Shown here: one piece after another, positions 636-13,843 of the stretch
Layout of the letters: each line of letters starts with the position of its first letter
How positions within the stretch are numbered: position 1 is the first letter of the stretch
DNA from: a virus
Reading direction: 5' to 3' (one strand)
Virus record (IMG/VR): IMGVR_UViG_3300028831_000629
Span: 1 to 35,166 of that record
Length of the DNA: 35,166 nt
Made by a program: the position numbers and the translations under genes
The notes under the pieces: generated by a model
What the model saw: the letters and a program-made list of their open reading frames with translations, nothing else
The model's database searches: none
Told to the model about the DNA's origin: nothing

Positions 636-1604
636 GTGCGTGACTATCTTCTGGTTAACGACATCCATTTGTCCGACCGGCCGCCGTCCTCCTGCACGGA
701 CACCTACAACGACGACCTGTTCGACCTGCTCGGCGAGGTCGGGGCGCTGGCCGGACAGCGCCAATCCCGGGCCGTCATCCTGGCCGGGGATGTCTTCCAC
801 CTCAAAACCCCCACCCGCACCACCCACCGCACCGTGCGCCGGTTCATCGAAACCCTGCGCAGCTGGCCGTGCCCGACGCTGATCGTGCCCGGCAACCACG
901 ACATGCAACACGACCGGCTCGACTCCCTCGACGAGACCCAGCCCCTCGGTGTGGTCTTCGCCTCCGGCGCCGCCCACCTGCTGCACGGCTGGTCCGCCGT
1001 CGACGCCGGGATCATCCCCGACCCGGTCTACGGGGTGCCCTGGCTGATGCGCTTCGCAGACGACCTCGTCGCCGACGCCTTCGCCGACTGGCGCAGCCGC
1101 CTCGACGGCGGCGTGCCGGCGCTGGTCGTCGCCCACGCCCCGCTCTACCGGCCCGGCCTGGAGCTGCCCTACGAGTTCTACCCGGCCGAGGCGTGGGCCA
1201 AGGCGATGGACGGGCACGGCACCGTGCACTACGGCCACGTGCACGAGGCGCACGGCGAATACACCGTCGGCGGGGTCCGCTTCTCCAACCCCGGCGCGCT
1301 GTCGCGCGGGTCGCTGCACGAACACAACCTGACCCGGCAGGTCGCCATCGGCGCCTGGACCCCCGGCTCGCCGGCCGTGGAACACCTCGTCCTGCCGCAC
1401 AAGCCGGCCAGCGAGGTGTTCCGCCTCGCCGAAACCGCAAAGACGGCCGCCGCCCAGCTCAGCCTGGACGCCTTCCTCGACTCGATCGGGCAGACCCGCA
1501 TCGAGATCACCTCCATCGAAGCCGTCCTCGCCCACGTGCGCAGCCTGCAGCTCGGCCCCGACCTGGAAGCCGTCATCGCCGAGCTGCTGGAGACGGCCCG
1601 ATGA
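636..1604 (+). CDS. Mre11/SbcD-like metallophosphoesterase (DNA nuclease)
   Basis: This 322-residue protein carries the calcineurin-type phosphoesterase motifs in order: D9-I-H11, G-D52, G86-N-H-D89, H167 in VVAHAPL, and G200-H-V-H203. These are the two-metal ligands of the SbcD/Mre11 nuclease family, and the size fits the catalytic core of T4 gp47-like phage proteins. I start at GTG 636 because GAGGTGG lies about 6 nt upstream and the next residues lead straight into the first beta strand; GTG 621 and ATG 573 are in-frame alternatives. It is first in an operon with a Cas4-like nuclease, a sliding clamp and a Rad50-like ATPase, which suggests DNA end processing for recombination or replication. 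The stop overlaps the next start (ATGA). Substrate and partner are inferred, not shown. Confidence 0.88.
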   Translation: MRDYLLVNDIHLSDRPPSSCTDTYNDDLFDLLGEVGALAGQRQSRAVILAGDVFHLKTPTRTTHRTVRRFIETLRSWPCPTLIVPGNHDMQHDRLDSLDETQPLGVVFASGAAHLLHGWSAVDAGIIPDPVYGVPWLMRFADDLVADAFADWRSRLDGGVPALVVAHAPLYRPGLELPYEFYPAEAWAKAMDGHGTVHYGHVHEAHGEYTVGGVRFSNPGALSRGSLHEHNLTRQVAIGAWTPGSPAVEHLVLPHKPASEVFRLAETAKTAAAQLSLDAFLDSIGQTRIEITSIEAVLAHVRSLQLGPDLEAVIAELLETAR

Positions 1605-2524
1605 CCGCTGCACCGGCAGAGCCGATCGCCATCTCCTGGAGCCAGCTGCGCGCCCACCAGGAATGCCGGCAGAAGTCCGCCCTGCTGCGCGCCGGGCACC
1701 GCAGCAAGGGCGCCAACATCCGCAACTACTTCCACGGCATGGTCGTGGACGGGCTGATGCGCCGCTGGCTGGCCGACCCGGACCGCCGCCACGGGCAGAT
1801 GGCCGCCCAGATCGACGAGTACATCGCCACCTGCGCCCAGCAGGCCATCGACGACGGCGACGGCGTGGTGCGCTGGCGGCACCCCGAAGACCGGGCCGAA
1901 CTGCGGGAGTTCTGCCTGCAGCTGCTCACCCGCCTCGAACCGCTGCTGGACACCCTGGTCCTGCCCTACCAGTTCGCCTGCGCGCAACGCTTCCGCCAAC
2001 CCGTCGTCGTGCCCTACCTGGACGGCACCCCCACCACCATCTACCTGCGCGGCGAAATGGACCTGCTCACCGTCGAAGCCGCCGGCCGGGCCGTGTGGGA
2101 CCTCAAAGGCACCAAGGACGACAGCTACTGGCGCAAGGTCCTCGGCCAGCTCGTCTTCTACGACCTGGCCGTGCTCGCCGAACACGGCAGCCCCACCATC
2201 CGGGTCGGGCTGATCCAGCCGATGTGCCGCAACCCGGTGCTGCACTGGACCCTCACCGACGAGCACCGCCGCCAAATGTGGGCCGCCATCCTGCGCATGG
2301 CCGGGGACATCTGGCGCGCCGAAGCCAGCTGCAAAACCGGCACCGACGGCTGCCGCTACTGCGAGGTCCGCCACGCCTGCGCCCGCTACGCCCCGGTCGG
2401 CAACACCATCGCCATCGGCGGCAACCCCACCAGCCGCACCGCCGGCAGCACCACCAGCACCACCAGCACCATGGCGAGCGCGCTGCGCGCCGCCGCCAGC
2501 ACCGCCCGGGAGGCCAGCGCATGA
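1601..2524 (+). CDS. Cas4/RecB-like PD-(D/E)XK exonuclease with predicted Fe-S cluster
   Basis: In this 307-residue protein the nuclease core is visible as G151-E-M-D154 followed by D167-L-K169 (the D-x-K of PD-(D/E)XK enzymes). Cysteines at C22, C251, C254 and C260 (C-x2-C-x5-C at the end) reproduce the Cas4/AddB [4Fe-4S] arrangement, in which one N-terminal and three C-terminal cysteines bracket the nuclease fold; C244 is extra. Such proteins degrade or trim DNA ends. There is no cas1, cas2 or CRISPR array nearby, so a CRISPR adaptation role is not supported. Position between the Mre11-like gene and the clamp points to DNA recombination. The last 50 residues are Ser/Thr/Ala-rich and look disordered. 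It overlaps both neighbours by 4 nt, so translation is probably coupled. Confidence 0.85.
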   Translation: MTAAPAEPIAISWSQLRAHQECRQKSALLRAGHRSKGANIRNYFHGMVVDGLMRRWLADPDRRHGQMAAQIDEYIATCAQQAIDDGDGVVRWRHPEDRAELREFCLQLLTRLEPLLDTLVLPYQFACAQRFRQPVVVPYLDGTPTTIYLRGEMDLLTVEAAGRAVWDLKGTKDDSYWRKVLGQLVFYDLAVLAEHGSPTIRVGLIQPMCRNPVLHWTLTDEHRRQMWAAILRMAGDIWRAEASCKTGTDGCRYCEVRHACARYAPVGNTIAIGGNPTSRTAGSTTSTTSTMASALRAAASTAREASA

Positions 2525-2787
2525 CCCAGCAGCACACCAGCGCAGATCTCGACGCCCAGGTGGCCGCCATCCGGACCCGCCTGGCCACCGCACAGCGCGC
2601 CCGGGTACGCGCCGAGGCCGACCGGGACGCCGCCGCGGCCAGCGCCGCCACCGCCCGCGCCCAGCTCGCCGAGGAGTTCGGCGTGCAGACCGTCGAAGAA
2701 GCTCAGGCGATGCTGCAGCAACTGGACACCGCCCTGGCCGGCGAGATCGCCACCCTGGCCGCCGCCCTCGACGAGATCGGAGCCTGA
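2521..2787 (+). CDS. Small coiled-coil protein of the recombination operon
   Basis: This 88-residue protein is almost entirely helical and Ala/Glu/Gln/Arg-rich, with heptad-like spacing of hydrophobic residues through about residues 8-85. It has no Cys, membrane segment or catalytic motif. ATG 2521 overlaps the stop of the Cas4-like gene (ATGA), and the sliding clamp starts 3 nt after its stop, so it belongs to the same operon. I do not recognise a family. It could be a partner or structural subunit of the phosphoesterase/ATPase pair, but that rests on position alone. Confidence 0.7.
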   Translation: MTQQHTSADLDAQVAAIRTRLATAQRARVRAEADRDAAAASAATARAQLAEEFGVQTVEEAQAMLQQLDTALAGEIATLAAALDEIGA

Positions 2788-2790
2788 CCC

Positions 2791-4065
2791 ATGACCCCAA
2801 CCCCCGGCACCACCAACTCCGCGGTCGTGGACGGGCACAGCTTCATCGATGAGCTGCTCGCCCCGGGCACGGACAACCCGGCCGCCGCCTTCGCCGCCGG
2901 CCTGGCCGCCGCCCCGCCGGCCGAGATCGGCTTCACCATCAAACGGTTCATCCTGCAGCTGCTGCTGGACCGGGCGGCCACCGTCGTGCCGACCCGCGAC
3001 GTCATGCCGGTGCTGAAGAACTTCCAGATCGACGTGCGGCCCGGCCGGCTGCGGGTGATCGCCTCCGACACCGAACTGTCGATGATCGCCACCACCGAAC
3101 TGGTCGAAGTCGACGCCCCCGGCGTGGCCGTCTTCCCGGCCCGCAAGATGCTCGACATCGTCCGCGAAGCCGACGAGGGCGACGTGCGCATCCGGGTCCG
3201 CGGGCAGGCCGCCGCCATCACCATCGGACGCACCACCTGGAACCTCATGCTGGCCGGCGGCGCCGACTACCCGGCCATGCCCGAGATCACCGAAGTCACC
3301 CTGGTCGCCGTCGAGCGGGCCGCGTTCGCCGCCTCCCTGCACGCCGTGCGCTACGCCGCCTGCCGTGACGCCAACCGGGCCAGCCTCAACATGATCGACG
3401 TCGCGCACGGGCGGATGACCGCCTGCGACGGCGCCCGCTTCGCCCAGGCCGGCACCGCCGAGCTGCCCTTCACCTGCCAGATCCCGATCGGCGCCGTCGA
3501 CGACCTGCTCAAGCTGCTCAAAGGCAGCGACCTCACCGACATCCACGTCGGCGAATCCAAACTGCACCTGATCTTCCGGCTCGGCGCCGACGTGTTCATC
3601 GTCAACAAGCTCATCGCCCAGTTCCCCGACCTGGAAGCGCTGTGGCTGCGCCCGGCCCTGAGCAACAAGCAGCCACTGCGGGTCGAACGCGCCGACCTGC
3701 TCACCGCGATCAAGCGGGTCCGCATCACCGCCGACCCCAACACCTCCGCCATCGGGCTGCACCTGGCCCCCGCCGCCCCCGGTGCCCCCGGTGCCCCCGG
3801 CCGGCTGAGCGTCTCGGCCCGCGACAAGTACAAGAACGCCGCCGAGGAAACCATCGACGAGGTCGGCTGGGACGGCCCCGAACGCACCCTCGTGGTCAAC
3901 CACGCCTTCCTCACCGACATGATCGGCGGACACACCGGGCCGACCCTGACCTTCCTGCTCGGCGAGGACACCAAGACCCGCAAAGCCCCGCTGCTGCTGC
4001 GCGACCCCGACACCGGCACCGTCGCCGTCGTGCAGCAGATGCTGCTGGACTGGACCGGCGCATGA
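2791..4065 (+). CDS. dnaN: DNA polymerase III beta-type sliding clamp
   Basis: This 424-residue protein resembles bacterial DnaN over three repeated domains after an unusual N-terminal extension of about 45 residues. The first domain has the typical run of residues: RDVMPVLKNFQID, LRVIASDTELSMIA, VFPARKMLDIVRE and GRTTWNLMLAGGADYPAMPE, matching the beta-clamp signatures (PVLxN, ATDxE, PARKLLDIVR, DFPxxPE). A short GAPGAPGAPG insert lies in the third domain. Bacterial clamps are about 370-390 residues, so this one is longer. The clamp tethers polymerases and repair enzymes to DNA. A DnaX-like loader ATPase is encoded at 10502-11641. Its place between a nuclease and a Rad50-like ATPase suggests coupling of replication and recombination. 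The SbcC-like start overlaps its stop by 4 nt. Confidence 0.88.
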   Translation: MTPTPGTTNSAVVDGHSFIDELLAPGTDNPAAAFAAGLAAAPPAEIGFTIKRFILQLLLDRAATVVPTRDVMPVLKNFQIDVRPGRLRVIASDTELSMIATTELVEVDAPGVAVFPARKMLDIVREADEGDVRIRVRGQAAAITIGRTTWNLMLAGGADYPAMPEITEVTLVAVERAAFAASLHAVRYAACRDANRASLNMIDVAHGRMTACDGARFAQAGTAELPFTCQIPIGAVDDLLKLLKGSDLTDIHVGESKLHLIFRLGADVFIVNKLIAQFPDLEALWLRPALSNKQPLRVERADLLTAIKRVRITADPNTSAIGLHLAPAAPGAPGAPGRLSVSARDKYKNAAEETIDEVGWDGPERTLVVNHAFLTDMIGGHTGPTLTFLLGEDTKTRKAPLLLRDPDTGTVAVVQQMLLDWTGA

Positions 4066-4739
4066 ACCAGACGGCCCAGCTCGCCGCCCTCACCGAACGG
4101 CTGCGCCGCGCCCGGCGCCAACTGGACCGCGAGGCCGGCGCCGCCCGCACCGTCGCGGTCACCGGCCAACGGCTCACCGCCGAAGTCGCCCACCTGTCCG
4201 GCCAGGTCGACCTGCACGAGCAGGCCGCCGCGCTCCTCGCGAGCATCGGCGAGGACCGCCAGACCGCCGCCCAGACCCAGATCGAAACCCTGGTCACCAA
4301 AGGACTGCAGACCATCTTCGGCGCGGACCTGTCCTTCCACCTGGTCCCCGGCGTGCGGGCCAAAACCCCGGTCGTCGACTTCGTCGTGCGCTCCGGCATG
4401 AACGACGGCACCGGTGACACCGTGGTCGACACCGACGTCCTCGACGCTCGCGGCGGCGGCCTGGCCGCCACCGTCGGGTTCCTGCTGCGCCTGGTCATCC
4501 TGCTGCTGTCCACCAAAGGCCGCGCCGGCAGCTCGGAGAGCACCCTGCTGCTGGACGAGACCTTCGCGCACGTCTCCGCCGAATACGAACCGAGGCTGGC
4601 CGAATTCCTGCGCGAACTGGTCGACAAAACCGGCGTGCAGATCATCCTGGTCACCCACTCCGACGCCTTCACCGACGCCGCCGACGTGCGCTACCGCTTC
4701 GAACTGACCGGCGGCGTCACCACCGTCCGCGCGGTGTGA
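4062..4739 (+). CDS. Rad50/SbcC-like ATPase, C-terminal half only
   Basis: This 225-residue protein has a coiled-coil N-terminus (about 1-75), then a domain ending in ABC/SMC-type motifs: a signature-like loop A129-R-G-G-G-L134, a Walker B strand with catalytic D165-E166 (TLLLDETFAHVS), and an H-loop histidine H199 in LVTHSD. This matches the C-terminal lobe of Rad50/SbcC and T4 gp46. No Walker A P-loop exists in this protein or in any nearby gene of the operon. The hinge and long coiled coil are also absent. It may pair with an N-terminal half encoded outside the window, or be a non-canonical ATPase. The Mre11-like partner is encoded 2.5 kb upstream in the same operon. Start ATG 4062 overlaps the clamp stop; its stop overlaps the next start. 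Confidence 0.8.
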   Translation: MNQTAQLAALTERLRRARRQLDREAGAARTVAVTGQRLTAEVAHLSGQVDLHEQAAALLASIGEDRQTAAQTQIETLVTKGLQTIFGADLSFHLVPGVRAKTPVVDFVVRSGMNDGTGDTVVDTDVLDARGGGLAATVGFLLRLVILLLSTKGRAGSSESTLLLDETFAHVSAEYEPRLAEFLRELVDKTGVQIILVTHSDAFTDAADVRYRFELTGGVTTVRAV

Positions 4740-4923: not shown

Positions 4924-5769
4924 GTGGCCGACTCCCTGCCCCGTTTCCTGCCCAGCGCCAAGGTGATCGCCGACTCGATCAGCCCGCTCGGGCACCGGCT
5001 GACCACCCTCGAAGTCACCATGCACCGGTACATGCTGCCGGAGTTCAACACCCACCGGGCCTTCTCCCGCAACAGCGCCTCCTCCCGGGCCATCCCGGTG
5101 CACAAGATGATGGCCAAGCTCGCCGACACCCCGGCCCTGCCGATCGGCTTCCGCGCCGAGCAGAAAGGCATGCAGGCCGGCCCCTACCTGCCCAAGGACA
5201 TTCAGGACCAGGCCCGCGACATCTGGCTGGCCGCCCGGGACAGCGCCGTCGAATCGGCCGAGCAGCTGGTCCGCCTCGGCGTGCACAAATCCATCGTCAA
5301 CCGGCTGCTGGAACCGTTCCTGCCGCACACCGTCATCGTCTCGGCCACCGACTGGCGCGGCTTCTTCGCCCAACGCAGCAACTACCTCGCCCAAGACGAG
5401 ATCCGCTGGCTGGCCAACAAGATGGAGGACTGCGTCGAGTTCTCCGACCCGCACGAACTGGACTTCGGCGCCTGGCATCTGCCCTACCTCACCGGCGATG
5501 AAGCCGGCCAGCTCGGCGAGATCGCCGCCTGTCAGGTCTCGGCCGCCCGCTGCGCCCGCGTCTCGTATCTCACCCACGACGGCCGGCGCGACCCCGCCGA
5601 AGACATCAACCTCTACCAGCGCCTCGTGAGCGCCGACCCGCCGCACGCCTCCCCGCTGGAACACGTCGCCACCCCGGCGCTCAACGGCACCGGCAACTTC
5701 ACCGGCTGGCGGCAACTGCGCCACCTTGTGCTGCGTGAGCCGGCGCCGCCGTGCGAGCACGAGGAATAG
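4924..5769 (+). CDS. thyX: Flavin-dependent thymidylate synthase (ThyX)
   Basis: This 281-residue enzyme shows the ThyX signature at residues 44-55 (H-R-x2-S-x4-S-x-R, read as HRAFSRNSASSR), preceded by the MHRYMLPEFNT strand. ThyX methylates dUMP to dTMP using methylene-tetrahydrofolate, NADPH and FAD, and phages use it to feed DNA synthesis. The start is GTG 4924; an overlapping ATG at 4920 is in another frame and is a shadow. The Shine-Dalgarno sequence is weak (AGAAG), so it may rely on coupling with the 58-aa gene 8 nt upstream. The next gene starts 3 nt after its stop. Another pyrimidine modification cannot be excluded, since the neighbouring radical SAM enzyme is unexplained, but plain dTMP synthesis is the simplest reading. 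Confidence 0.9.
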   Translation: MADSLPRFLPSAKVIADSISPLGHRLTTLEVTMHRYMLPEFNTHRAFSRNSASSRAIPVHKMMAKLADTPALPIGFRAEQKGMQAGPYLPKDIQDQARDIWLAARDSAVESAEQLVRLGVHKSIVNRLLEPFLPHTVIVSATDWRGFFAQRSNYLAQDEIRWLANKMEDCVEFSDPHELDFGAWHLPYLTGDEAGQLGEIAACQVSAARCARVSYLTHDGRRDPAEDINLYQRLVSADPPHASPLEHVATPALNGTGNFTGWRQLRHLVLREPAPPCEHEE

Positions 5770-5772
5770 CCC

Positions 5773-6036
5773 GTGGCCGCCGAGGACGACATCCGCGCCG
5801 GGCTGCTCGCCCAAGCCGACCAGGACTGCGCCGCCGCCTACCACGACGTGATCACCCTGGCCCGCGACTGCCACGACCTGGACATCATCGAAGCCACCCG
5901 CCGCCTCGGCCTGCACCTCGCCGACCGGATCAGCCCCGACGGGCTCGCCTTCACCCTGGCCTACTTCGCGTTGCTGGCCGCCCGCACCCCACGCCGCAGC
6001 CAGCACGGAGGCCGCGATGGAGGCCGCGATGCCTAG
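5773..6036 (+). CDS. 87-aa hypothetical protein
   Basis: GTG 5773 has a good ribosome-binding site, GAGGAA at 5761-5766, overlapping the thyX stop. The 87-residue product is helical and acidic in its first 70 residues, with DxxxxxYHDVITLARDCHDLDII in the centre interrupted only by ordinary residues. It ends in a Gly/Arg/Asp tail (GGRDGGRD) that comes from a 12-bp tandem duplication containing the start of the next gene. No family is recognised. The 20-nt overlap with the radical SAM gene suggests coupled expression. Confidence 0.65.
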   Translation: MAAEDDIRAGLLAQADQDCAAAYHDVITLARDCHDLDIIEATRRLGLHLADRISPDGLAFTLAYFALLAARTPRRSQHGGRDGGRDA

Positions 6037-8923
6037 CCCGGTGCAGATCCACAAGTTCCTCGACCAGCACAGCCACCGCATGGACCTGCCCGCCCAGTAC
6101 CTGGGCGACGAACCCAACGCCCGCGGCACCGACTGGGACAGCGCCGCCGTGCGCTGGTGCATGCTCGCCTCCTGGCCCTACGAGGCCGCCGCCGGCAACT
6201 CCTCCATCCCGGCCGTCTACAGCGCCATCAACGACGCCGGCTACCTGTGCGACCGGTTCTACCTGCCGGCCACCCCCCGCGACCTGAAGCTGCTCGACAA
6301 GCACGGCATCGGCGCGTTCGGCATCGAATCCAAGCACCCGCTCACCGACTTCGACGTGGTCGGCTCCTCCATCAGCTATCCGGTGCTGTCGATGAGCTAC
6401 CTGAAGCTGCTGAGCATGTCCGGCATCCCGGCCCGCTGGCGCGACCGCGAACCCGACCCGCTCGACGGGCAGGCCCGCCACCCGATGGTCATCGTCGGCG
6501 GCCAGTGCTACGGCGCCCCCGAGGTCCTCGCCCCGGTCGTGGACTGCTGGTGGCTCGGCGAAGTCGAGGACGAACCCGGCAACCCCGGCATCGGCGCCGT
6601 CTGCCACCGCATCGCCGGCTTCAAGCAGTCCGGCGCCTGGACCGGCGACCGGATCGGCTGCTACCGCGACCTGGCCCGCGAATTCAGCTTCCTGTACTTC
6701 CCCCGCTTCGTCGACGTGCACTACGGCTACGAGGACCGCAGCCACGCCGGGGTCGGCCCGCACCCGTCCAAGCAGGTCATCGGCTACAGCAGCAACCTGA
6801 GCGGCATGCGGCTGCCGCTGCGGCGCCGCTACGTCAAAAACCTCGACCAGGCCGCCCCGCTCGTCGCGCCGCCGCTGCTGTACAGCGACCCGGCCATGGG
6901 CTCCGGCGACCTGGAGGTGGGCCGCGGCTGCCCCGCCTGGTGCTCCTTCTGCGCCCTGACCTACCGGCAGAAGCCCTACCGGCAACGAAGCGTCGACGCC
7001 GTCCTGGACTACGCCGACCAGTTCGCCCGCAACATGGGCTCGGTGCGGATGGCCCCGTTCAGCCCCGACTTCCCCATGTACACCCAACGCAAGAAACTCA
7101 TCGCCGCGCTGCTCGAGAACGTATCGGATGAAGTCGATGCGGCCACGATGCGGGTCGACGACTTCATCGCCGATCACGACTTCATCCTGCTGCAGGTGCA
7201 CGGCGGCATGGACGCCGTCACCCTCGGCGTGGAGGGCAACAGCCAACGCATGCGTGACCTGGTCGGCAAGGGCACCGCCGACGCCGACATCATCGAGGCC
7301 GTCACCCGGGGCATCCGCGCCGGCATCCGCCGCTTCAAGCTGTACATGATCTCCAACCTGCCCGGTGAGGACGTCGGCGACGTCTACCGCATCCTCAAGT
7401 TGGCCAAAGACCTCGCCGACGTGCGCGAGTCGATGCACCAGCCCACCGTGCGTATCCAGTTCTCCTGGACCCCGTTGATGATCGAGGCCAACACCCCGTT
7501 CCAGTGGTTCGCGCCCACCCTGGCCAGCCGCATCCTCGGCGACGTCTGGGACGAATTCCGCGACCTGAAAATCGACTTCAAGCTCGGCGCCAAGGCCGAA
7601 CCCAACAAGGCCGCCTTCTTCCAGCTGTGCCAGCGCGCCTCCCGCGACGTCGGGGAGGCCCTCGTCGACGCCATGCTGCAGCTCGATCAGGCGTGCTGGG
7701 GCGGCGTCCCGCGCACCTTCCGCGCGCTGCTGGAGGACAAGCTGCACGAGCGGGGCTTCCGCAACGGCTTCGGCGACTGCTTCGACGAACGCGCCAAGCA
7801 CGACATGTTCGGCTGGGAACACATCGACCAGGGCATCTCCAGCGAACTGCTGTGGGTCACCTACCTGCAGATGCGCGAATTCATCGAGCAGACCGACAGC
7901 CACACCTACGACCTGAACTTCGACGCCGACTACCACGGCAATGAGTGGATCGAACGCTGCGACACCAAGTGCCAGGGCAAGACCTGCGGCGCCTGCGACC
8001 ACGCCGACCTGAAGATCCGCACCGGCTACATCCGGGCCGCCGCCGCGGAACGCCACGTCGACCTCACCGCGCTACGCCCGATCGACCAGCGCAGCCAGGC
8101 CGTGCGCATCCGCGCCCGCGTCGCCAAGCCCGCCCGGTACCGCTTCGTGGACAACCGGCACTGGCGCTTCGCCGTGCGCCGGGCCGCCTTCCGCGCCCAG
8201 CACGCCCTGGCCACCCCGTACGGCATCACCAAACGCTCGATCCGCTTCGCCAGCGACGAAATCAAGCACCGCGACTGGACCGCCGGGGTCGACTACCTCG
8301 AATTCGGGCTCACCGGCAGTGCCGCCGCCGCCGATCCGGCTGCGCTGCAGCGCTTCCTCGACGCGATGAACCACGAACTGCACCCGTGGCTTCACATCGG
8401 CGACTGGCTGCCGCACCCGGCCGGCGCCACCACCATGCGCGCCGCCGTCGACCTCAACCTGTTCGAGCTGGCCGTCGACGACAACCCCGACCGGGTCCTG
8501 GCCCGGCTGGCCGGCTGGCGGCACGCCGAACACGTCCCGATGCGGCTGCCCATCGTCGGCGGCTACTTCGCCCCCGCCTCCGAAGAGGTCGACGCCAAGA
8601 CGTTCGTCGAGGACCTGTGGCTGATCAACGACCACGCCCAACCCAAACTGCGGATGCTGGTGCGCGGCCGGCCCAACCCGTACAACGTCTACGCCGCCCT
8701 GATGGGCCGCCCGTCCTGGATCGACGCCGCCCGGCTGCCGGCCACCCGGCTGGAAGCCTTCACCGACACCGACCGCGCCCAACAGGACTTCCTGCGCCCC
8801 AACTGCCACAGCTGCACGCTGCAGATCCCCACCACCATCCTCGACCGGCCCTACCACCCCACCCACTGCCCGCGCTGCCTGGACGAGGCCGCCGGCCGGC
8901 GCATCCAGGAGCCGCACCGGTGA
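6017..8923 (+). CDS. B12-binding-like radical SAM protein with DUF2344-like C-terminal domain
   Basis: The 968-residue protein resembles the large uncharacterised TIGR03960-type radical SAM proteins throughout. Residues about 22-200 match their N-terminal B12-binding-like Rossmann region (AQYLGDE, IGAFGIESKHPLTDFDVVG, MVIVGGQCYGAPEVLAPVVD). The [4Fe-4S]/SAM motif is C305-x3-C309-x2-C312 (CPAWCSFC). A cysteine cluster follows at C648, C652, C657 and C660. Residues about 694-830 resemble the radical SAM-linked domain DUF2344 (RIRARVAKPARYRF, WRFAVRRAAFRAQ, DYLEFGLTG). A zinc-ribbon pair C930-x2-C933/C951-x2-C954 ends the protein. Cobalamin binding is not certain, because no DxHxxG motif was seen. 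The substrate is unknown; RNA, protein or nucleotide modification are all possible. ATG 6029 is an equally good start, because GGAGGCCGCGAT is duplicated. Confidence 0.85.
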   Translation: MEAAMPSPVQIHKFLDQHSHRMDLPAQYLGDEPNARGTDWDSAAVRWCMLASWPYEAAAGNSSIPAVYSAINDAGYLCDRFYLPATPRDLKLLDKHGIGAFGIESKHPLTDFDVVGSSISYPVLSMSYLKLLSMSGIPARWRDREPDPLDGQARHPMVIVGGQCYGAPEVLAPVVDCWWLGEVEDEPGNPGIGAVCHRIAGFKQSGAWTGDRIGCYRDLAREFSFLYFPRFVDVHYGYEDRSHAGVGPHPSKQVIGYSSNLSGMRLPLRRRYVKNLDQAAPLVAPPLLYSDPAMGSGDLEVGRGCPAWCSFCALTYRQKPYRQRSVDAVLDYADQFARNMGSVRMAPFSPDFPMYTQRKKLIAALLENVSDEVDAATMRVDDFIADHDFILLQVHGGMDAVTLGVEGNSQRMRDLVGKGTADADIIEAVTRGIRAGIRRFKLYMISNLPGEDVGDVYRILKLAKDLADVRESMHQPTVRIQFSWTPLMIEANTPFQWFAPTLASRILGDVWDEFRDLKIDFKLGAKAEPNKAAFFQLCQRASRDVGEALVDAMLQLDQACWGGVPRTFRALLEDKLHERGFRNGFGDCFDERAKHDMFGWEHIDQGISSELLWVTYLQMREFIEQTDSHTYDLNFDADYHGNEWIERCDTKCQGKTCGACDHADLKIRTGYIRAAAAERHVDLTALRPIDQRSQAVRIRARVAKPARYRFVDNRHWRFAVRRAAFRAQHALATPYGITKRSIRFASDEIKHRDWTAGVDYLEFGLTGSAAAADPAALQRFLDAMNHELHPWLHIGDWLPHPAGATTMRAAVDLNLFELAVDDNPDRVLARLAGWRHAEHVPMRLPIVGGYFAPASEEVDAKTFVEDLWLINDHAQPKLRMLVRGRPNPYNVYAALMGRPSWIDAARLPATRLEAFTDTDRAQQDFLRPNCHSCTLQIPTTILDRPYHPTHCPRCLDEAAGRRIQEPHR

Positions 8924-9417: not shown

Positions 9418-9746
9418 GCACGACCGCCACGGAGGGCTGGCGGGAGCTGGCGGCGCCCTGCGCCGACCCGGAATGCCTGGACTCGAACGGCCGGCGCAGC
9501 CTCGCCGAACCGGAAGCCGACGGCAACCACCGCTACTTCGCCTGCCCCGAATGCGGCTTCACCTTCGGCTGGCAGCGCGCCCAACCGGTGGCGGTGAATA
9601 GCGAGGGGTCCTGCGCCGTAGGTGTACCAGAGGCCCTGCGCCGCAACGCCTCAGCCGCGATGCACGCGGCCATCAGCGGCGCCGCAGAGCGCCCGAAGCT
9701 ACCCCTGCTGCAGATCGGGAGACGGCCAGATGCCCACCCTGCGTGA
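9414..9746 (+). CDS. Zinc-ribbon protein
   Basis: GTG 9414 overlaps the preceding stop by 4 nt. The 110-residue product has two cysteine pairs, C16-x4-C21 and C44-x2-C47 (YFACPECGFTFGW), typical of a small zinc ribbon. The second half is Ala/Arg-rich without recognisable motifs. The ribbon suggests nucleic-acid or protein contact, but no family can be named. Its last 17 nt overlap the protease gene start. Confidence 0.65.
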   Translation: MSTTATEGWRELAAPCADPECLDSNGRRSLAEPEADGNHRYFACPECGFTFGWQRAQPVAVNSEGSCAVGVPEALRRNASAAMHAAISGAAERPKLPLLQIGRRPDAHPA

Positions 9747-10464
9747 CGGCACCACCAACACCGACGTCCGGCTGGACCGGCTCGCCGAATTCGACGAAGC
9801 CAGCCGCCAGTACCCGGTGACCGCCCTCATCGGCACCGCCGAGGTGCCGACCACCAAGCTGTGGAGCATCCCGGACGGCTCCCCGGTGCTCGACCAGGGC
9901 CAGGAAGGCGCCTGCGTCGGCTTCGGCGTCACCAACGAGCTGCGCTTCAACCCGGTGCCGATCCCCAACCTGGACGCCACCTTCGCCAAGCAGACCATCT
10001 ACTGGGGCGCCCAGCGCACCGACCAGTGGCCCGGCGGCTCGTACCCCGGCGCCACACCGCAGTACGAAGGCACCTCCGTGCTCGCCGGCATCAAGACCGC
10101 CGCCAAGCTCGGCTTCTACGGCGAATACCGGTGGGCGTTCGGGGAGAACGACCTCGCCCTGGCCGTCTCCAAGATCGGCCCGGGGGTGATCGGCATCAAT
10201 TGGTACACCGGCATGTTCAAGCCGGACGCCAAGGGCTACCTCAACATCACCGGCAAGGTCGAAGGCGGGCACTGCATCCTGGTCAGCGGCCTGACCATCA
10301 CCACGGCGGCCGGCGGCGGCTACTACACCGTCTACAACTCGTGGGGACCCAACTGGGGTAGGCAGGGCACCGCCCGGATCCGCCGATCCGCGATGACCCG
10401 GCTGCTGCACGAGGACGGCGACGCCTGCATCGTCACCCAGCGCCTCACCCCGACCGCCGCCTAG
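9730..10464 (+). CDS. Papain-like (C1-type) cysteine protease
   Basis: The 244-residue protein carries the papain tetrad in order: oxyanion Q56 in LDQGQEGACVGFG, nucleophile C62, general base H181 in EGGHCILVSG, and N203 in VYNSWGPNWG. The mature enzyme layout is complete, with only a short 45-residue N-terminal extension and no signal peptide, so it acts in the cytoplasm or is packaged with the virion. ATG 9730 has GGGAG at 9717-9721; the longer upstream frame lacks such a site. It could process a phage or host protein. Substrate unknown. It lies between a zinc-ribbon gene and the DnaX-like gene, away from the head protease. Confidence 0.85.
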   Translation: MPTLRDGTTNTDVRLDRLAEFDEASRQYPVTALIGTAEVPTTKLWSIPDGSPVLDQGQEGACVGFGVTNELRFNPVPIPNLDATFAKQTIYWGAQRTDQWPGGSYPGATPQYEGTSVLAGIKTAAKLGFYGEYRWAFGENDLALAVSKIGPGVIGINWYTGMFKPDAKGYLNITGKVEGGHCILVSGLTITTAAGGGYYTVYNSWGPNWGRQGTARIRRSAMTRLLHEDGDACIVTQRLTPTAA

Positions 10465-10501: not shown

Positions 10502-11641
10502 GTGGAGCAGCTCGCACTGAAGTACCGGCCCACCGGCTTCGACGACCTGGTGGGCCAACGCGCCGTGAACTACCCGCTGCGGGCCATGGTCGAGCAGGAC
10601 AAGGTGCCCACCGCCCTGCTGTTCAAGGGCAGCCGCGGCACCGGCAAGACCACCACCGCCCGGATCCTCGCCGCCGCGCTGAACTGCGAGCAGCGGCCCG
10701 GCCCGTGCGGGCAGTGCGTGTCCTGCAAGGCCGTCTTCGACGGCACCAGCCTCGACCTGGTCGAGATCGACGCCGCCTCCAACGGCCTGGTCGACGACAT
10801 CCGGGCGCTGCGCCAGCACGTGCTCTACGGCGTCGGCGGCCAGTACCGGGTGGTCGTGCTCGACGAGGCCCACTCGATGAGCCAGGCCGCGTTCAACGCA
10901 CTGCTGAAGACCCTCGAAGAACCCCCACCGGGCACCGTGTTCATCCTGGCCACCACCGAACCCGGCCGGATCATGCCCACCGTGCGGGACCGGTGCATGC
11001 CCTTCACCTTCACCCGCATCGGCATCGCCGACATGACCGCCCGGCTCGCGCACATCTGCCAGGCCGAGTGCCAAGGCGACGTCGAACCGGCGCTGCTGCA
11101 CGCCCTCGCCGAACACGCCGACGGATCCATGCGCGACGCCATCATGGTGCTCGACCAGCTGCTGCGCATCGGGATCACCACCCTGGCCGGCTACCACGAC
11201 CTGATCGGCGACGCCGATCACGGCCCGGCCCTGCTCGACCCGATCACCCGCGGCGACATCGCCGCCGCCTACACCACCCTCGACGCCATCCTCACCCGCA
11301 CCGGCGACCCCAACGCCGTGGCCACCGCCCTGGCCGGCACCCTGCGCGACCTGCAGGTGCTGCGAGCCGGCGGCCAGCTCGCCATGCAAGGTGAGGCCCT
11401 GGCCGCCCGCACCGCCCTCGCCGAACGCCTCGACCCGCCGGCCATCTTCGCCGCCCAGACGGTCCTGTGGGACCTGCGCACCAAGATCCGCCCCGGCGAC
11501 GACCCGCGGAGCAGTCTCGACCTCGCGGTAGCGATGATCATGAGTAAGCTCGTCCGGCCGGCCGCCACGGCCGCCTCCAGCGCAGCGCCGGCAGCGGCCC
11601 GCAAACTGACCCTCGCGGACATGGCGGCCCTGCGCCGATGA
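10502..11641 (+). CDS. dnaX: DNA polymerase III gamma-type clamp loader ATPase
   Basis: This 379-residue protein begins ALKYRPTGFDDLVGQ, as in bacterial DnaX. It has Walker A G43-SRGTGK-T50, the DnaX zinc module C62/C69/C72/C75, and Walker B D121-E-A-H124. LLKTLEEPPPGTVFILATTE leads to R164 in D163-R-C165, where bacteria have SRC. The length fits the gamma form; the tau extension that contacts the polymerase and helicase is missing. A phage-encoded clamp is at 2791-4065, so loader and clamp may be matched, with delta subunits borrowed from the host. GTG 10502 has a strong GGGGGAGG site at 10487-10494. Its stop overlaps the glycosyltransferase start (ATGA). Confidence 0.9.
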   Translation: MEQLALKYRPTGFDDLVGQRAVNYPLRAMVEQDKVPTALLFKGSRGTGKTTTARILAAALNCEQRPGPCGQCVSCKAVFDGTSLDLVEIDAASNGLVDDIRALRQHVLYGVGGQYRVVVLDEAHSMSQAAFNALLKTLEEPPPGTVFILATTEPGRIMPTVRDRCMPFTFTRIGIADMTARLAHICQAECQGDVEPALLHALAEHADGSMRDAIMVLDQLLRIGITTLAGYHDLIGDADHGPALLDPITRGDIAAAYTTLDAILTRTGDPNAVATALAGTLRDLQVLRAGGQLAMQGEALAARTALAERLDPPAIFAAQTVLWDLRTKIRPGDDPRSSLDLAVAMIMSKLVRPAATAASSAAPAAARKLTLADMAALRR

Positions 11642-12438
11642 GTGCACCCCACGGCGACCTGTCCGCCGAACTGCACGCTGTGCACCAGGTGCACCAGAGC
11701 GGTGAACTGCTCGTCCTCGTACCGAGCCGGCTGCGCCCGCACACCGTGATCGACCTCGCCGACGCCTGCGCCGAGACCTGCACCGCCAACACCTGGCTGG
11801 CCTGGTGCCTGGACGACACCCCCGACCCGATGGCCTACCACGAGGCCGCCTGGGACGCCGCCGAGATCTACCCCAACCTGATCATGGTGGAGAGCAGCAC
11901 CCGCCGCGGCCTGGTCGGCACCCTCAACCACTACGCCAGCCAAGCGGCTGCCCCGTTCGTGGCCGGCGGCCACAGTCCCTACGCCATCGGCTACCTCGGC
12001 GACGACCACCGCCCCAAAACCGTCGGCTGGGACGCCGCCTACCTGGCCGCGCTGCACGAGCTGGGCACCGGCATCGTCTACGGCGACGACGAACACCAAG
12101 GCGCCAAGCTGCCCACCCAGATGGCCATGACCGCCGACATCGTCCGGACGCTGGGCTACCTGGCCCCGCCCGAGCTGTGGCACATGTACTGCGACAACTT
12201 CTGGAAGGACCTCGGCGAGGGCGCCGGCTGCCTGACCTACCTGCCCGAGGTGACCGTCACCCACCGCCACCCGGGCGCCGGGCGGGGCAGCTGGGACGCC
12301 TCCTACCGGGAGACCAACGCCGCCGAGCGCTACGCCGCCGACCAGGCCGCCTACCGCCGCTACCGACGTGCCCGCCTTGCGCACGACATCGCCGCCGTCG
12401 CCGCGCTGCGCGCCCAACACGATCAGGACGTTCGATGA
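11638..12438 (+). CDS. GT-A-like glycosyltransferase
   Basis: The 266-residue protein has a nucleotide-sugar transferase layout: GYLGDDHRPKTVGWD with D122-D123 as a DxD-like metal site, then YGDDEHQG at 149-156. Next come an aromatic acceptor region (PELWHMYCDNFWKDLGE) and a late VTVTHRHPGAG segment that supplies a metal-binding His in related enzymes. No membrane segment is present. Donor and acceptor sugars cannot be told. It opens a four-gene run of alternating glycosyltransferase and FkbM methyltransferase genes, each start overlapping the previous stop, which suggests one glycan is built and O-methylated. Confidence 0.72.
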   Translation: MSAPHGDLSAELHAVHQVHQSGELLVLVPSRLRPHTVIDLADACAETCTANTWLAWCLDDTPDPMAYHEAAWDAAEIYPNLIMVESSTRRGLVGTLNHYASQAAAPFVAGGHSPYAIGYLGDDHRPKTVGWDAAYLAALHELGTGIVYGDDEHQGAKLPTQMAMTADIVRTLGYLAPPELWHMYCDNFWKDLGEGAGCLTYLPEVTVTHRHPGAGRGSWDASYRETNAAERYAADQAAYRRYRRARLAHDIAAVAALRAQHDQDVR

Positions 12439-13049
12439 GAGTGTTTCTGCCCGCGTACCAAGCGTGGACCTTTGCGCGGCTACCCAGGCTGCTCGCCGAC
12501 GCCGGCATCCACGCCCGCACCGTGCTGCATGTCGGCGCCCACCACGGCGAGGAAGTCGCGATCTACCGGCAGTGCGGCTTCGCCACCATCCGGCTCGTGG
12601 AACCCGACCCGGGCAACCTCGCCGTGCTCGGCGAACGCTATGGCGCCGACCCCGACATCGACATCATCGCCGTCGCCGCCACCCCGGCCGCCACCCCGCA
12701 GGGCAACGCCAAGCTGTGGCTGGCTGAGCGTTCCGTGTGGAGCGGGCTGCAGCCGCACCCGAGCGCCACCGGCGAGAAGATCCAGGTCCCCACCGTCACC
12801 CTCGGCGTTTTGCAGTCCGACGAAAACCTGCTCGTCCTGGACACCCAGGGCAGCGAACTGGAGCTGCTGCGCACCGCCGACCTGCGCCACCTCGACATGG
12901 TCATCGTGGAAACCACCCGCCGGCCGGGCGACACCGCCGCCGACTACAGCGCCACCACCGCGTACATGCGCAGCCAGCACTGGCGGGCCGCCGAGGAATG
13001 GGTGCACGACAACTCCGGCTACACCGACACCGTGTTCCTGCCGCAATGA
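12435..13049 (+). CDS. FkbM-like SAM-dependent methyltransferase
   Basis: A 204-residue Rossmann methyltransferase. Motif I is V33-G-A-H-H-G38 (TVLHVGAHHGEE), the acidic SAM ribose contact is E56 in RLVEPDPGN, and the FkbM-type motif is LDTQGSELELL with D136, G139 and E141. FkbM-family enzymes methylate sugar hydroxyls, so O-methylation of a sugar added by the flanking glycosyltransferases is the likely role. ATG 12435 overlaps the preceding stop (ATGA), and its own stop overlaps the next start. Confidence 0.82.
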   Translation: MRVFLPAYQAWTFARLPRLLADAGIHARTVLHVGAHHGEEVAIYRQCGFATIRLVEPDPGNLAVLGERYGADPDIDIIAVAATPAATPQGNAKLWLAERSVWSGLQPHPSATGEKIQVPTVTLGVLQSDENLLVLDTQGSELELLRTADLRHLDMVIVETTRRPGDTAADYSATTAYMRSQHWRAAEEWVHDNSGYTDTVFLPQ

Positions 13050-13843
13050 GGTGCCGGCTCGTCTTCACCGCCTACCGCCGGCCGCACTACTTCGCCGAGG
13101 TCCTCGACGCCTGGACCCAGGTCCGCGGCTTCGCCGAATGGAAGCCGGCCGTGTACCTCGAACCCAGCCCGGTCGAGCAGGAGATGGCCGAGCTGGCCAC
13201 CGCCGCCGGCCTGCGGGTGCACCTCAACATGGCCCGGCTCGGGGTGCTGTCCAACCCGTGGCAGGCCCTGGAAGGCGCCTTCACCGGTCACGGCGACCCG
13301 GCCGACGCCGCCGAGTTCGCCGTGCTCGCCGAGGACGACCTGCTGCCCTCCACCGACATCCTGGAATTCTTCACCTGGGCCGCCACCAGCCTGCGTGGCG
13401 TCGACTTCGCCGGCCCGCCCACCAACCCCCGCCGGCCGCGGCGGGTTCTCACCGTGTGCGCCGCCTCCCTCGCCCCGGCCGTCACCCCCGAACAGCAGCA
13501 CGATGTCACCCTGTCCGGGACGTTCTGCAGCCAGATCTGGGGCACCTGGGCCGGCAACTGGACCGCCCAGCTACGCGACACCTGGGACCACGACTACTCC
13601 AGCGCCCCACCCGGGCGCGGCAACGAGGCCGGCTGGGACTGGAACATCTACCGCCGCCTGGTGCCCGGCTGCCGGGTCGCCCACCCGGTCGCCTCCCGGG
13701 TCACCCACATCGGCCGCTTCGGCGGCGCGCACACCACCGAGGCCAGCTTCCCCGGCTCCCAGCTGCCCACCTTCGCCCAGCACCGCCCACCCGGGCAGTA
13801 CCGGCTCGTCCCGCTGCGCGACGGCGACGCCCCAACCCCATAA
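13046..13843 (+). CDS. GT-A-like glycosyltransferase (second)
   Basis: A 265-residue protein beginning with a nucleotide-binding strand (RLVFTAYRRPHYFAEVLDAW) typical of GT-A glycosyltransferases. The acidic metal site is E96-D97-D98 in FAVLAEDDLLPSTD. Later segments include a Trp-rich acceptor region (QIWGTWAGNW, AGWDWNIYRR) and a THIGRFGGAH end. The EDD site and size recall GT13-like and phage capsid-glycan enzymes, but the exact family is unclear. It is translationally coupled to both FkbM genes by overlap or close spacing. Confidence 0.72.
   Translation: MRCRLVFTAYRRPHYFAEVLDAWTQVRGFAEWKPAVYLEPSPVEQEMAELATAAGLRVHLNMARLGVLSNPWQALEGAFTGHGDPADAAEFAVLAEDDLLPSTDILEFFTWAATSLRGVDFAGPPTNPRRPRRVLTVCAASLAPAVTPEQQHDVTLSGTFCSQIWGTWAGNWTAQLRDTWDHDYSSAPPGRGNEAGWDWNIYRRLVPGCRVAHPVASRVTHIGRFGGAHTTEASFPGSQLPTFAQHRPPGQYRLVPLRDGDAPTP

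Follow-up and report, generated by a model that had tools for sequence, protein, structure and literature searches.

What a long radical S-adenosylmethionine (SAM) protein does for a phage is the question raised by a gene at positions 6017..8923 of the window, by which we mean the whole stretch of 35,166 nucleotides analysed here (IMG/VR virus record IMGVR_UViG_3300028831_000629, positions 1 to 35,166). An initial annotation, made from the sequence, had described the product as a B12-binding-like radical-SAM protein fused to a DUF2344-like domain. The answer that we tentatively favour is a cobalamin-type radical-SAM enzyme which would modify a nucleic-acid base, RNA being its likeliest substrate, with docking by a domain of pseudouridine-synthase fold and a zinc-ribbon protein as its partner. 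The gene lies on the plus strand, as do all the domains and motifs described below, and is a single intact open reading frame (ORF) of 968 amino acids ending with a stop codon at 8921-8923. Translation probably begins at the second in-frame ATG, at 6029, rather than at 6017, because a GGAGG motif is found 5 nt upstream of it and the N-termini of homologues match there. The guanine plus cytosine (GC) content by codon position was 67/46/95% and the ratio of nonsynonymous to synonymous substitution rates (dN/dS) was 0.17-0.37 in four pairs of relatives; the 95% GC at third positions and the low dN/dS together indicated that this is a real gene upon which purifying selection acts. Scans of IMG/VR yielded 24 loci at first and then more, bringing the total to about 30 contigs (identities of 46-73%), many of them 100-152 kb long and belonging to a lineage of large phages, and no close relative of the protein was found in the cultured phages searched.

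The first half of the protein carried the recognisable catalytic domains. Searches against Pfam matched the window protein to Radical_SAM_N2 (PF19864; residues 66-185, positions 6212-6571, E 3e-22, 79 bits for a gathering score of 29) and to Radical_SAM (PF04055; residues 300-462, positions 6914-7402, E 1e-13, 52 bits for a gathering score of 29.5), the latter family being matched by this protein alone in each of eight carrier records tested. The top NCBIfam match was TIGR03960 (residues 21-614, E 4e-52, 178 bits), which missed the cut-off of 462.3; nearly all the phage records tested scored 145-200 bits, and none of 17 reached that cut-off (best 200 bits). A search of PHROGs gave no match. 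The motif of the radical-SAM [4Fe-4S] cluster, CPAWCSFC (C305, C309 and C312; 6929..6952), was unchanged as CxxxCxxC in all 24 aligned phage homologues, which were full or near-full proteins, so a loss of the motif, which would have spoken against the initial annotation, was not seen.

In the full-length AlphaFold2 (AF2) model (predicted local distance difference test, pLDDT, 80; predicted template modelling score, pTM, 0.81), the best fold match of residues 46-545 (6152..7651) was MgmA, the methyl-coenzyme M reductase glutamine methylase (PDB 9ccb; Z 16.1, root mean square deviation 3.3, 368 residues aligned, 18% identity), suggesting that a Rossmann domain of the cobalamin type precedes the SAM barrel. 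The N-terminal part also matched the folds of the cobalamin radical-SAM enzymes OxsB and TsrM and of the tRNA-modifying MiaB; OxsB, TsrM and CysS, further cobalamin radical-SAM methylases, were compared alongside MgmA. The model therefore supported a predicted cobalamin-type catalytic half at the level of the fold only. The whole chain of MgmA has 417 residues, with no space for the pseudouridine-synthase-fold domain or the zinc ribbon of the phage protein.

As MgmA is a protein glutamine C-methyltransferase, this match (Z 16.1) is also the first point in favour of a different substrate, a protein modified by C-methylation or otherwise. The simplest target would be the small zinc-ribbon protein described below, or else a component of the replisome, for instance the neighbouring clamp or clamp loader. 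We take this alternative seriously, for MgmA acts on protein and the tail of the zinc-ribbon protein is strongly conserved, but hold it less likely than base modification; it leaves the C-terminal domain unexplained.

That domain (residues 694-945; 8096..8851) was assigned from hhalign and from the AF2 model as DUF2344/TIGR03936-like with a TruA-type pseudouridine-synthase fold. The hidden Markov models (HMMs) of PF10105 and TIGR03936 gave no significant match to the window protein; the relative L025 reached 17 bits against TIGR03936 (cut-off 71.9) and its record 16.6 against PF10105 (cut-off 23.8). Profile-profile comparison of the phage domain with bacterial TIGR03936 gave a probability of 95.1% (E 3e-8, 201 columns), and because this match was significant while reversed and unrelated controls remained at 0.1%, the domain is, as judged from the aligned profiles, homologous to bacterial TIGR03936/DUF2344 and the fusion was correctly named in the initial annotation. 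The profile search proposed there as a check thus recovered Radical_SAM, Radical_SAM_N2 and, below its cut-off, TIGR03960, but not TIGR03936 by HMM, which appeared only in the profile-profile comparison.

When the C-terminal domain was modelled alone (AF2; pLDDT 88, pTM 0.85), its best structural matches were PUS3 (Z 11.9) and TruA (Z 11.8), with PUS1, PUS10, TruA and PUS3 at Z 10-12 and Cbf5, TruB and TruD at about 8; the top 30 matches without exception, and most of the best 50, were pseudouridine synthases or their H/ACA or mitoribosomal-assembly relatives. The fold was predicted on the phage domain only, that of bacterial DUF2344 following by homology. TruA, PUS1, PUS3 and PUS10 have the fold in common with the phage residues (Z 11-12, about 190-210 residues aligned), but sequence homology to TruA, which was looked for by profile-profile comparison, was not found, and the catalytic Asp is not conserved in the phage homologues. 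The RTD-type motif (RTDxGVHA, with the catalytic Asp) was absent from the phage domain, and D747, the Asp nearest to the expected catalytic site as judged from topology, is Gly or Ser in L015, L018, L023, L024 and L029. Since D747 varies and TruA is undetectable by sequence, we read the domain as a putative docking module rather than an active pseudouridine synthase, and pseudouridylation by the usual mechanism seems unlikely.

Both of the extra cysteine clusters reported initially were recovered. The second four-cysteine site, CDTKCQGKTCGAC (C648, C652, C657 and C660; 7958..7996), has the spacing C648-x3-C652-x4-C657-x2-C660, was invariant at the alignment level in the same 24 homologues and has a counterpart in the C-termini of bacterial TIGR03960 proteins. 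The C-terminal zinc ribbon, CxxC-x17-CxxC (8804..8878), was kept in 22 of the 24 and was found in phages only, none being present in the bacterial proteins read. In L095 an intein-like insertion lies between F311 and C312, splitting the CxxxCxxC motif, and in L030 an intein-like insertion carrying a homing-endonuclease domain lies inside the second cysteine site. Inteins favour indispensable sites. The invariance of both sites and the insertions splitting exactly these sites in two relatives support their functional use. The insertions themselves (L095 9103-12987 and L030 9989-13870) were two different ones, one per cysteine site. In L026 (9989-12861) the gene appeared as two ORFs of 573 and 326 amino acids with a gap of 171 bp, which may reflect a frameshift, a split gene or an insertion.

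The comparison with bacteria drew on adjacent TIGR03960 and TIGR03936 genes from Nonomuraea, Collinsella, Monoglobus and Acetoanaerobium. Phage residues 1-660 aligned colinearly with TIGR03960, including its C-terminal cysteine cluster, and because the N-terminus matches TIGR03960 and the C-terminus TIGR03936, the phage protein corresponds to the two bacterial proteins joined in a single chain. The claim of a TIGR03960-type architecture was therefore borne out, in the form of a fused and divergent TIGR03960-like plus DUF2344-like protein (E 4e-52; hhalign 95.1%), and its flanking regions, far from being unrelated, showed homology to both partners. The Radical_SAM_N2 domain, the SAM barrel with its CxxxCxxC and TPFQ motifs, the post-barrel cysteine cluster and the DUF2344-like domain are common to the two forms, whereas the phage form is a single chain of about 25% identity to the pair, with a longer second cysteine site and an added C-terminal zinc ribbon. 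The genomic settings also differ, the phage gene being located in a replication module and the bacterial pair beside rplU/rpmA/obgE. In Collinsella the pair adjoins rplU-rpmA-obgE, in Nonomuraea it adjoins a large RNase E/G-like ORF (identified by reading only), and across several bacterial phyla the pair is found next to core translation genes. This context (rplU, rpmA and obgE; the RNase E/G-like ORF), together with the pseudouridine-synthase fold, is the reason why we prefer RNA over DNA as the putative substrate. A literature search on TIGR03960, on DUF2344 with radical SAM and on wider terms found no assigned function.

The colinear homology would also suit an ordinary host-derived metabolic gene, that is, a TIGR03960/TIGR03936 pair which was acquired and still does its bacterial job, topping up the capacity of the host. 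This is very unlikely in our view, because the identity to bacterial members is only about 25%, the scores lie far under the NCBI equivalog cut-offs, the phage form is one fused chain to which a new zinc ribbon has been added and with which another phage gene co-occurs, and the distribution of the gene accords with the tree of a single phage lineage. In addition, no close relative, either prophage or bacterial, was confirmed in GTDB representative genomes and contigs with the peptide patterns used, which would miss distant members.

The co-occurring gene emerged when whole genomes were compared, in pieces, with G004, a close relative. Only 2 of its 199 genes were shared with the carriers G012 and G016 but missing from the non-carriers G017 (L083) and Magritte: the radical-SAM gene and a 77-amino-acid zinc-ribbon gene. 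Proteins of this kind have about 60-70 amino acids and are encoded away from the radical-SAM gene. A profile of this zinc-ribbon protein gave matches in 20 of the 24 carrier records (E 1e-12 to 1e-31) but in none of 22 non-carriers (best 0.03, a partial match), giving an uncorrected Fisher p of 2e-9; three of the four carriers lacking the gene were contigs ending 0.7-5 kb upstream of the radical-SAM gene, and in the window contig it is expected just past the left edge. Distances of 7-20 kb between the two genes are common, and since the non-carrier G017 retains the core genes between their positions, their joint absence does not reflect one simple deletion. The C-terminal tail of the zinc-ribbon protein, PG[WFY]xxRxEAG, is strongly conserved, up to the last residue.

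The small size of this protein, its conserved tail and its being the sole gene besides the radical-SAM gene to show this distribution in the comparison with G004 fit modification of a protein as well, and so does the position of the radical-SAM gene between genes of the clamp module. However, phages in which clamp and loader are the same manage without the enzyme, and no such zinc-ribbon neighbour was present beside the bacterial pair in the annotated loci read. For the preferred reading, base modification, the same small protein offers a partner. A modification used in infection, as proposed initially, is still the best interpretation, strengthened by the predicted pseudouridine-synthase fold and by the zinc-ribbon gene.

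The genomic slot was examined in 25 loci, where the usual order was an Mre11-like gene, a PD-(D/E)XK exonuclease, a small coil, the sliding clamp, an SbcC-like ATPase, the radical-SAM gene and the clamp loader, with small genes varying between members of the module. In the window these are, all on the plus strand, the Mre11/SbcD-like metallophosphoesterase (669..1604; cluster 5, 20 of the 25 loci), the exonuclease (1601..2524; cluster 2, 24 of 25), the DnaN-like sliding clamp (2791..4065; PF00712, phrog_947; cluster 1, 24 of 25), the C-terminal half of the SbcC-like ATPase as fixed upstream flank (4062..4739; phrog_15167) and the DnaX-like clamp loader as fixed downstream flank (10502..11641; PF13177, phrog_5846). 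A ThyX-like gene (4924..5769; phrog_85) was an occasional neighbour, present in 4 of the 25 loci, and the functional hint that the initial annotation had drawn from thyX, as well as a partnership with ThyX, was discarded; the conserved neighbours are the clamp, the ATPase and the loader. Searching with the ATPase yielded 50 contigs, 42 of which also had the loader; the radical-SAM gene was between both flanks in 19 and absent in 23. In 17 non-carrier records neither the protein nor PF04055 was matched elsewhere, and in L083 the flanks were 121 bp apart. Altogether the gene was missing from 24 of 44 related loci, including that of the cultured Microbacterium phage Magritte. On a quick tree of ATPase plus loader with 44 rows (no outgroup, window and Magritte added), presence and absence required three changes, gains and losses being indistinguishable, and the closest relative of the window was L083, which nevertheless lacks the gene. 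These results showed that the gene is long-standing in the phage lineage and dispensable. Magritte (OR553905) resembles the carriers in gene order and in its SbcC-like ATPase (49-54% identical), clamp loader (42-44%) and terminase (46-49%), but it has neither the radical-SAM gene nor the zinc-ribbon partner, and a 123-amino-acid gene occupies the slot.

Radical-SAM enzymes occur in phage DNA hypermodification pathways. This precedent and the unvarying place of the gene, with the SbcC-like ATPase on one side and the clamp loader on the other, are consistent with modification of bases in replicating phage DNA, the enzyme being recruited through the replication module and the product helping to evade host nucleases. 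Absence from some relatives would suit a defence-evasion trait, and immediately downstream there are glycosyltransferase-like and methyltransferase genes. Nevertheless, phages lacking the radical-SAM gene likewise have the clamp module and the glycosyltransferase-like genes, the comparison with G004 revealed no recognisable hypermodification gene distributed in the way of the radical-SAM gene, ThyX was sporadic, and the domain fold and bacterial gene context favour RNA, for which reasons DNA modification seems unlikely to us. The interval from clamp loader to terminase (11638-13843 in the window) contains phrog_14945, an FkbM-type gene (PF05050) and a homologue of the Magritte glycosyltransferase 8, which are glycosyltransferase/methyltransferase-like, and Magritte has a UDP-glucose dehydrogenase and glycosyltransferases in the same interval; these genes possibly serve glycosylation of DNA or of the capsid.

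Several observations weigh against modification of RNA by a cobalamin enzyme. The phage gene is surrounded by DNA-replication genes rather than RNA genes, a context which favours DNA over RNA, and tRNA arrays did not follow the gene (33 tRNAs in the carrier G016, 2 in the carrier G004 and more than 20 in the non-carrier Magritte). TruA could not be detected from the sequence of the C-terminal domain. A shared fold is no proof of function, and MgmA, which comes closest in fold to the catalytic half, acts on a protein. The B12-binding-like character claimed initially stood at the level of the fold (MgmA match) but not at that of the motif, DxHxxG being unconserved in the protein and its homologues, although TsrM binds cobalamin despite having no His ligand (PMC8992657). 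Finally, the link between the two genes comprises only three independent contrasts on the tree, all concordant, for which significance is unreachable (sign test, p 0.25).

If the enzyme does modify a base, the CxxxCxxC [4Fe-4S] cluster would cleave SAM to give the 5'-deoxyadenosyl radical, and transfer of a methyl group or radical chemistry may proceed via cobalamin. The C-terminal fold of pseudouridine-synthase type, with no conserved catalytic Asp, would grip the strand and offer the base to the barrel, the second four-cysteine site and the terminal zinc ribbon would aid nucleic-acid binding or hold a second metal cluster, and the separate zinc-ribbon protein of about 60-70 amino acids would be a dedicated partner, an adaptor or possibly a substrate. 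The benefit would be conditional, because related phages live without both genes. A fuller version, which is possible but which we hold more loosely, is a two-component viral system in which a cobalamin radical-SAM enzyme with a silent pseudouridine-synthase fold docking RNA or DNA and a dedicated zinc-ribbon partner would make a base modification not yet described; if true, it would at the same time tell us what the bacterial TIGR03960/TIGR03936 pair does. The features new here are the predicted TruA-type fold, the slot between SbcC-like ATPase and clamp loader with its dispensability, the zinc-ribbon co-occurrence and the intein-like insertions at both cysteine sites. The phage fusion suggests that the bacterial TIGR03960 and TIGR03936 proteins act as one unit, and the fold predicted for the DUF2344-like domain points to a nucleic-acid substrate. 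With the paired zinc-ribbon gene as a concrete partner candidate and L083 and Magritte as natural non-carrier controls, this long-standing unknown becomes directly testable.

Some candidates were set aside. Three human-faecal "phage" matches (MT83xxxx) that were read resembled fragments of bacterial TIGR03960-TIGR03936 operons, and the TIGR03960-like gene at the end of the record of Microcystis phage MaAM05 (L031; MW495066) is flanked by mqnC, ispG and trpS and looks bacterial. Two plasmid-labelled records, L035 (NZ_LT559118, 11.9 Mb) and L036 (NZ_CP154629, 2.6 Mb), were chromosome-sized and carried core genes including the TIGR03960 pair. A fusion of the radical-SAM protein to the clamp loader, suggested by a 1449-amino-acid open frame in L022, was also rejected: the linker reads out-of-frame and the loader start is kept (MSDAREALATKYRP), pointing to a chance read-through or a frameshift. 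No clamp-binding motif was found in the radical-SAM proteins. In the window and three other loci, the radical-SAM gene is adjoined by a papain-family cysteine peptidase (9730-10464 in the window; PF00112, phrog_16701). Finally, the Rad50/SbcC-like ATPase of the module seems to be split into an N-terminal half with Walker A (cluster 9), a coil of about 85 amino acids and a C-terminal half with Walker B (window 2521-2787 and 4062-4739; L011 4957-5910), its pieces being interleaved with the Mre11-like gene, the exonuclease and the sliding clamp.

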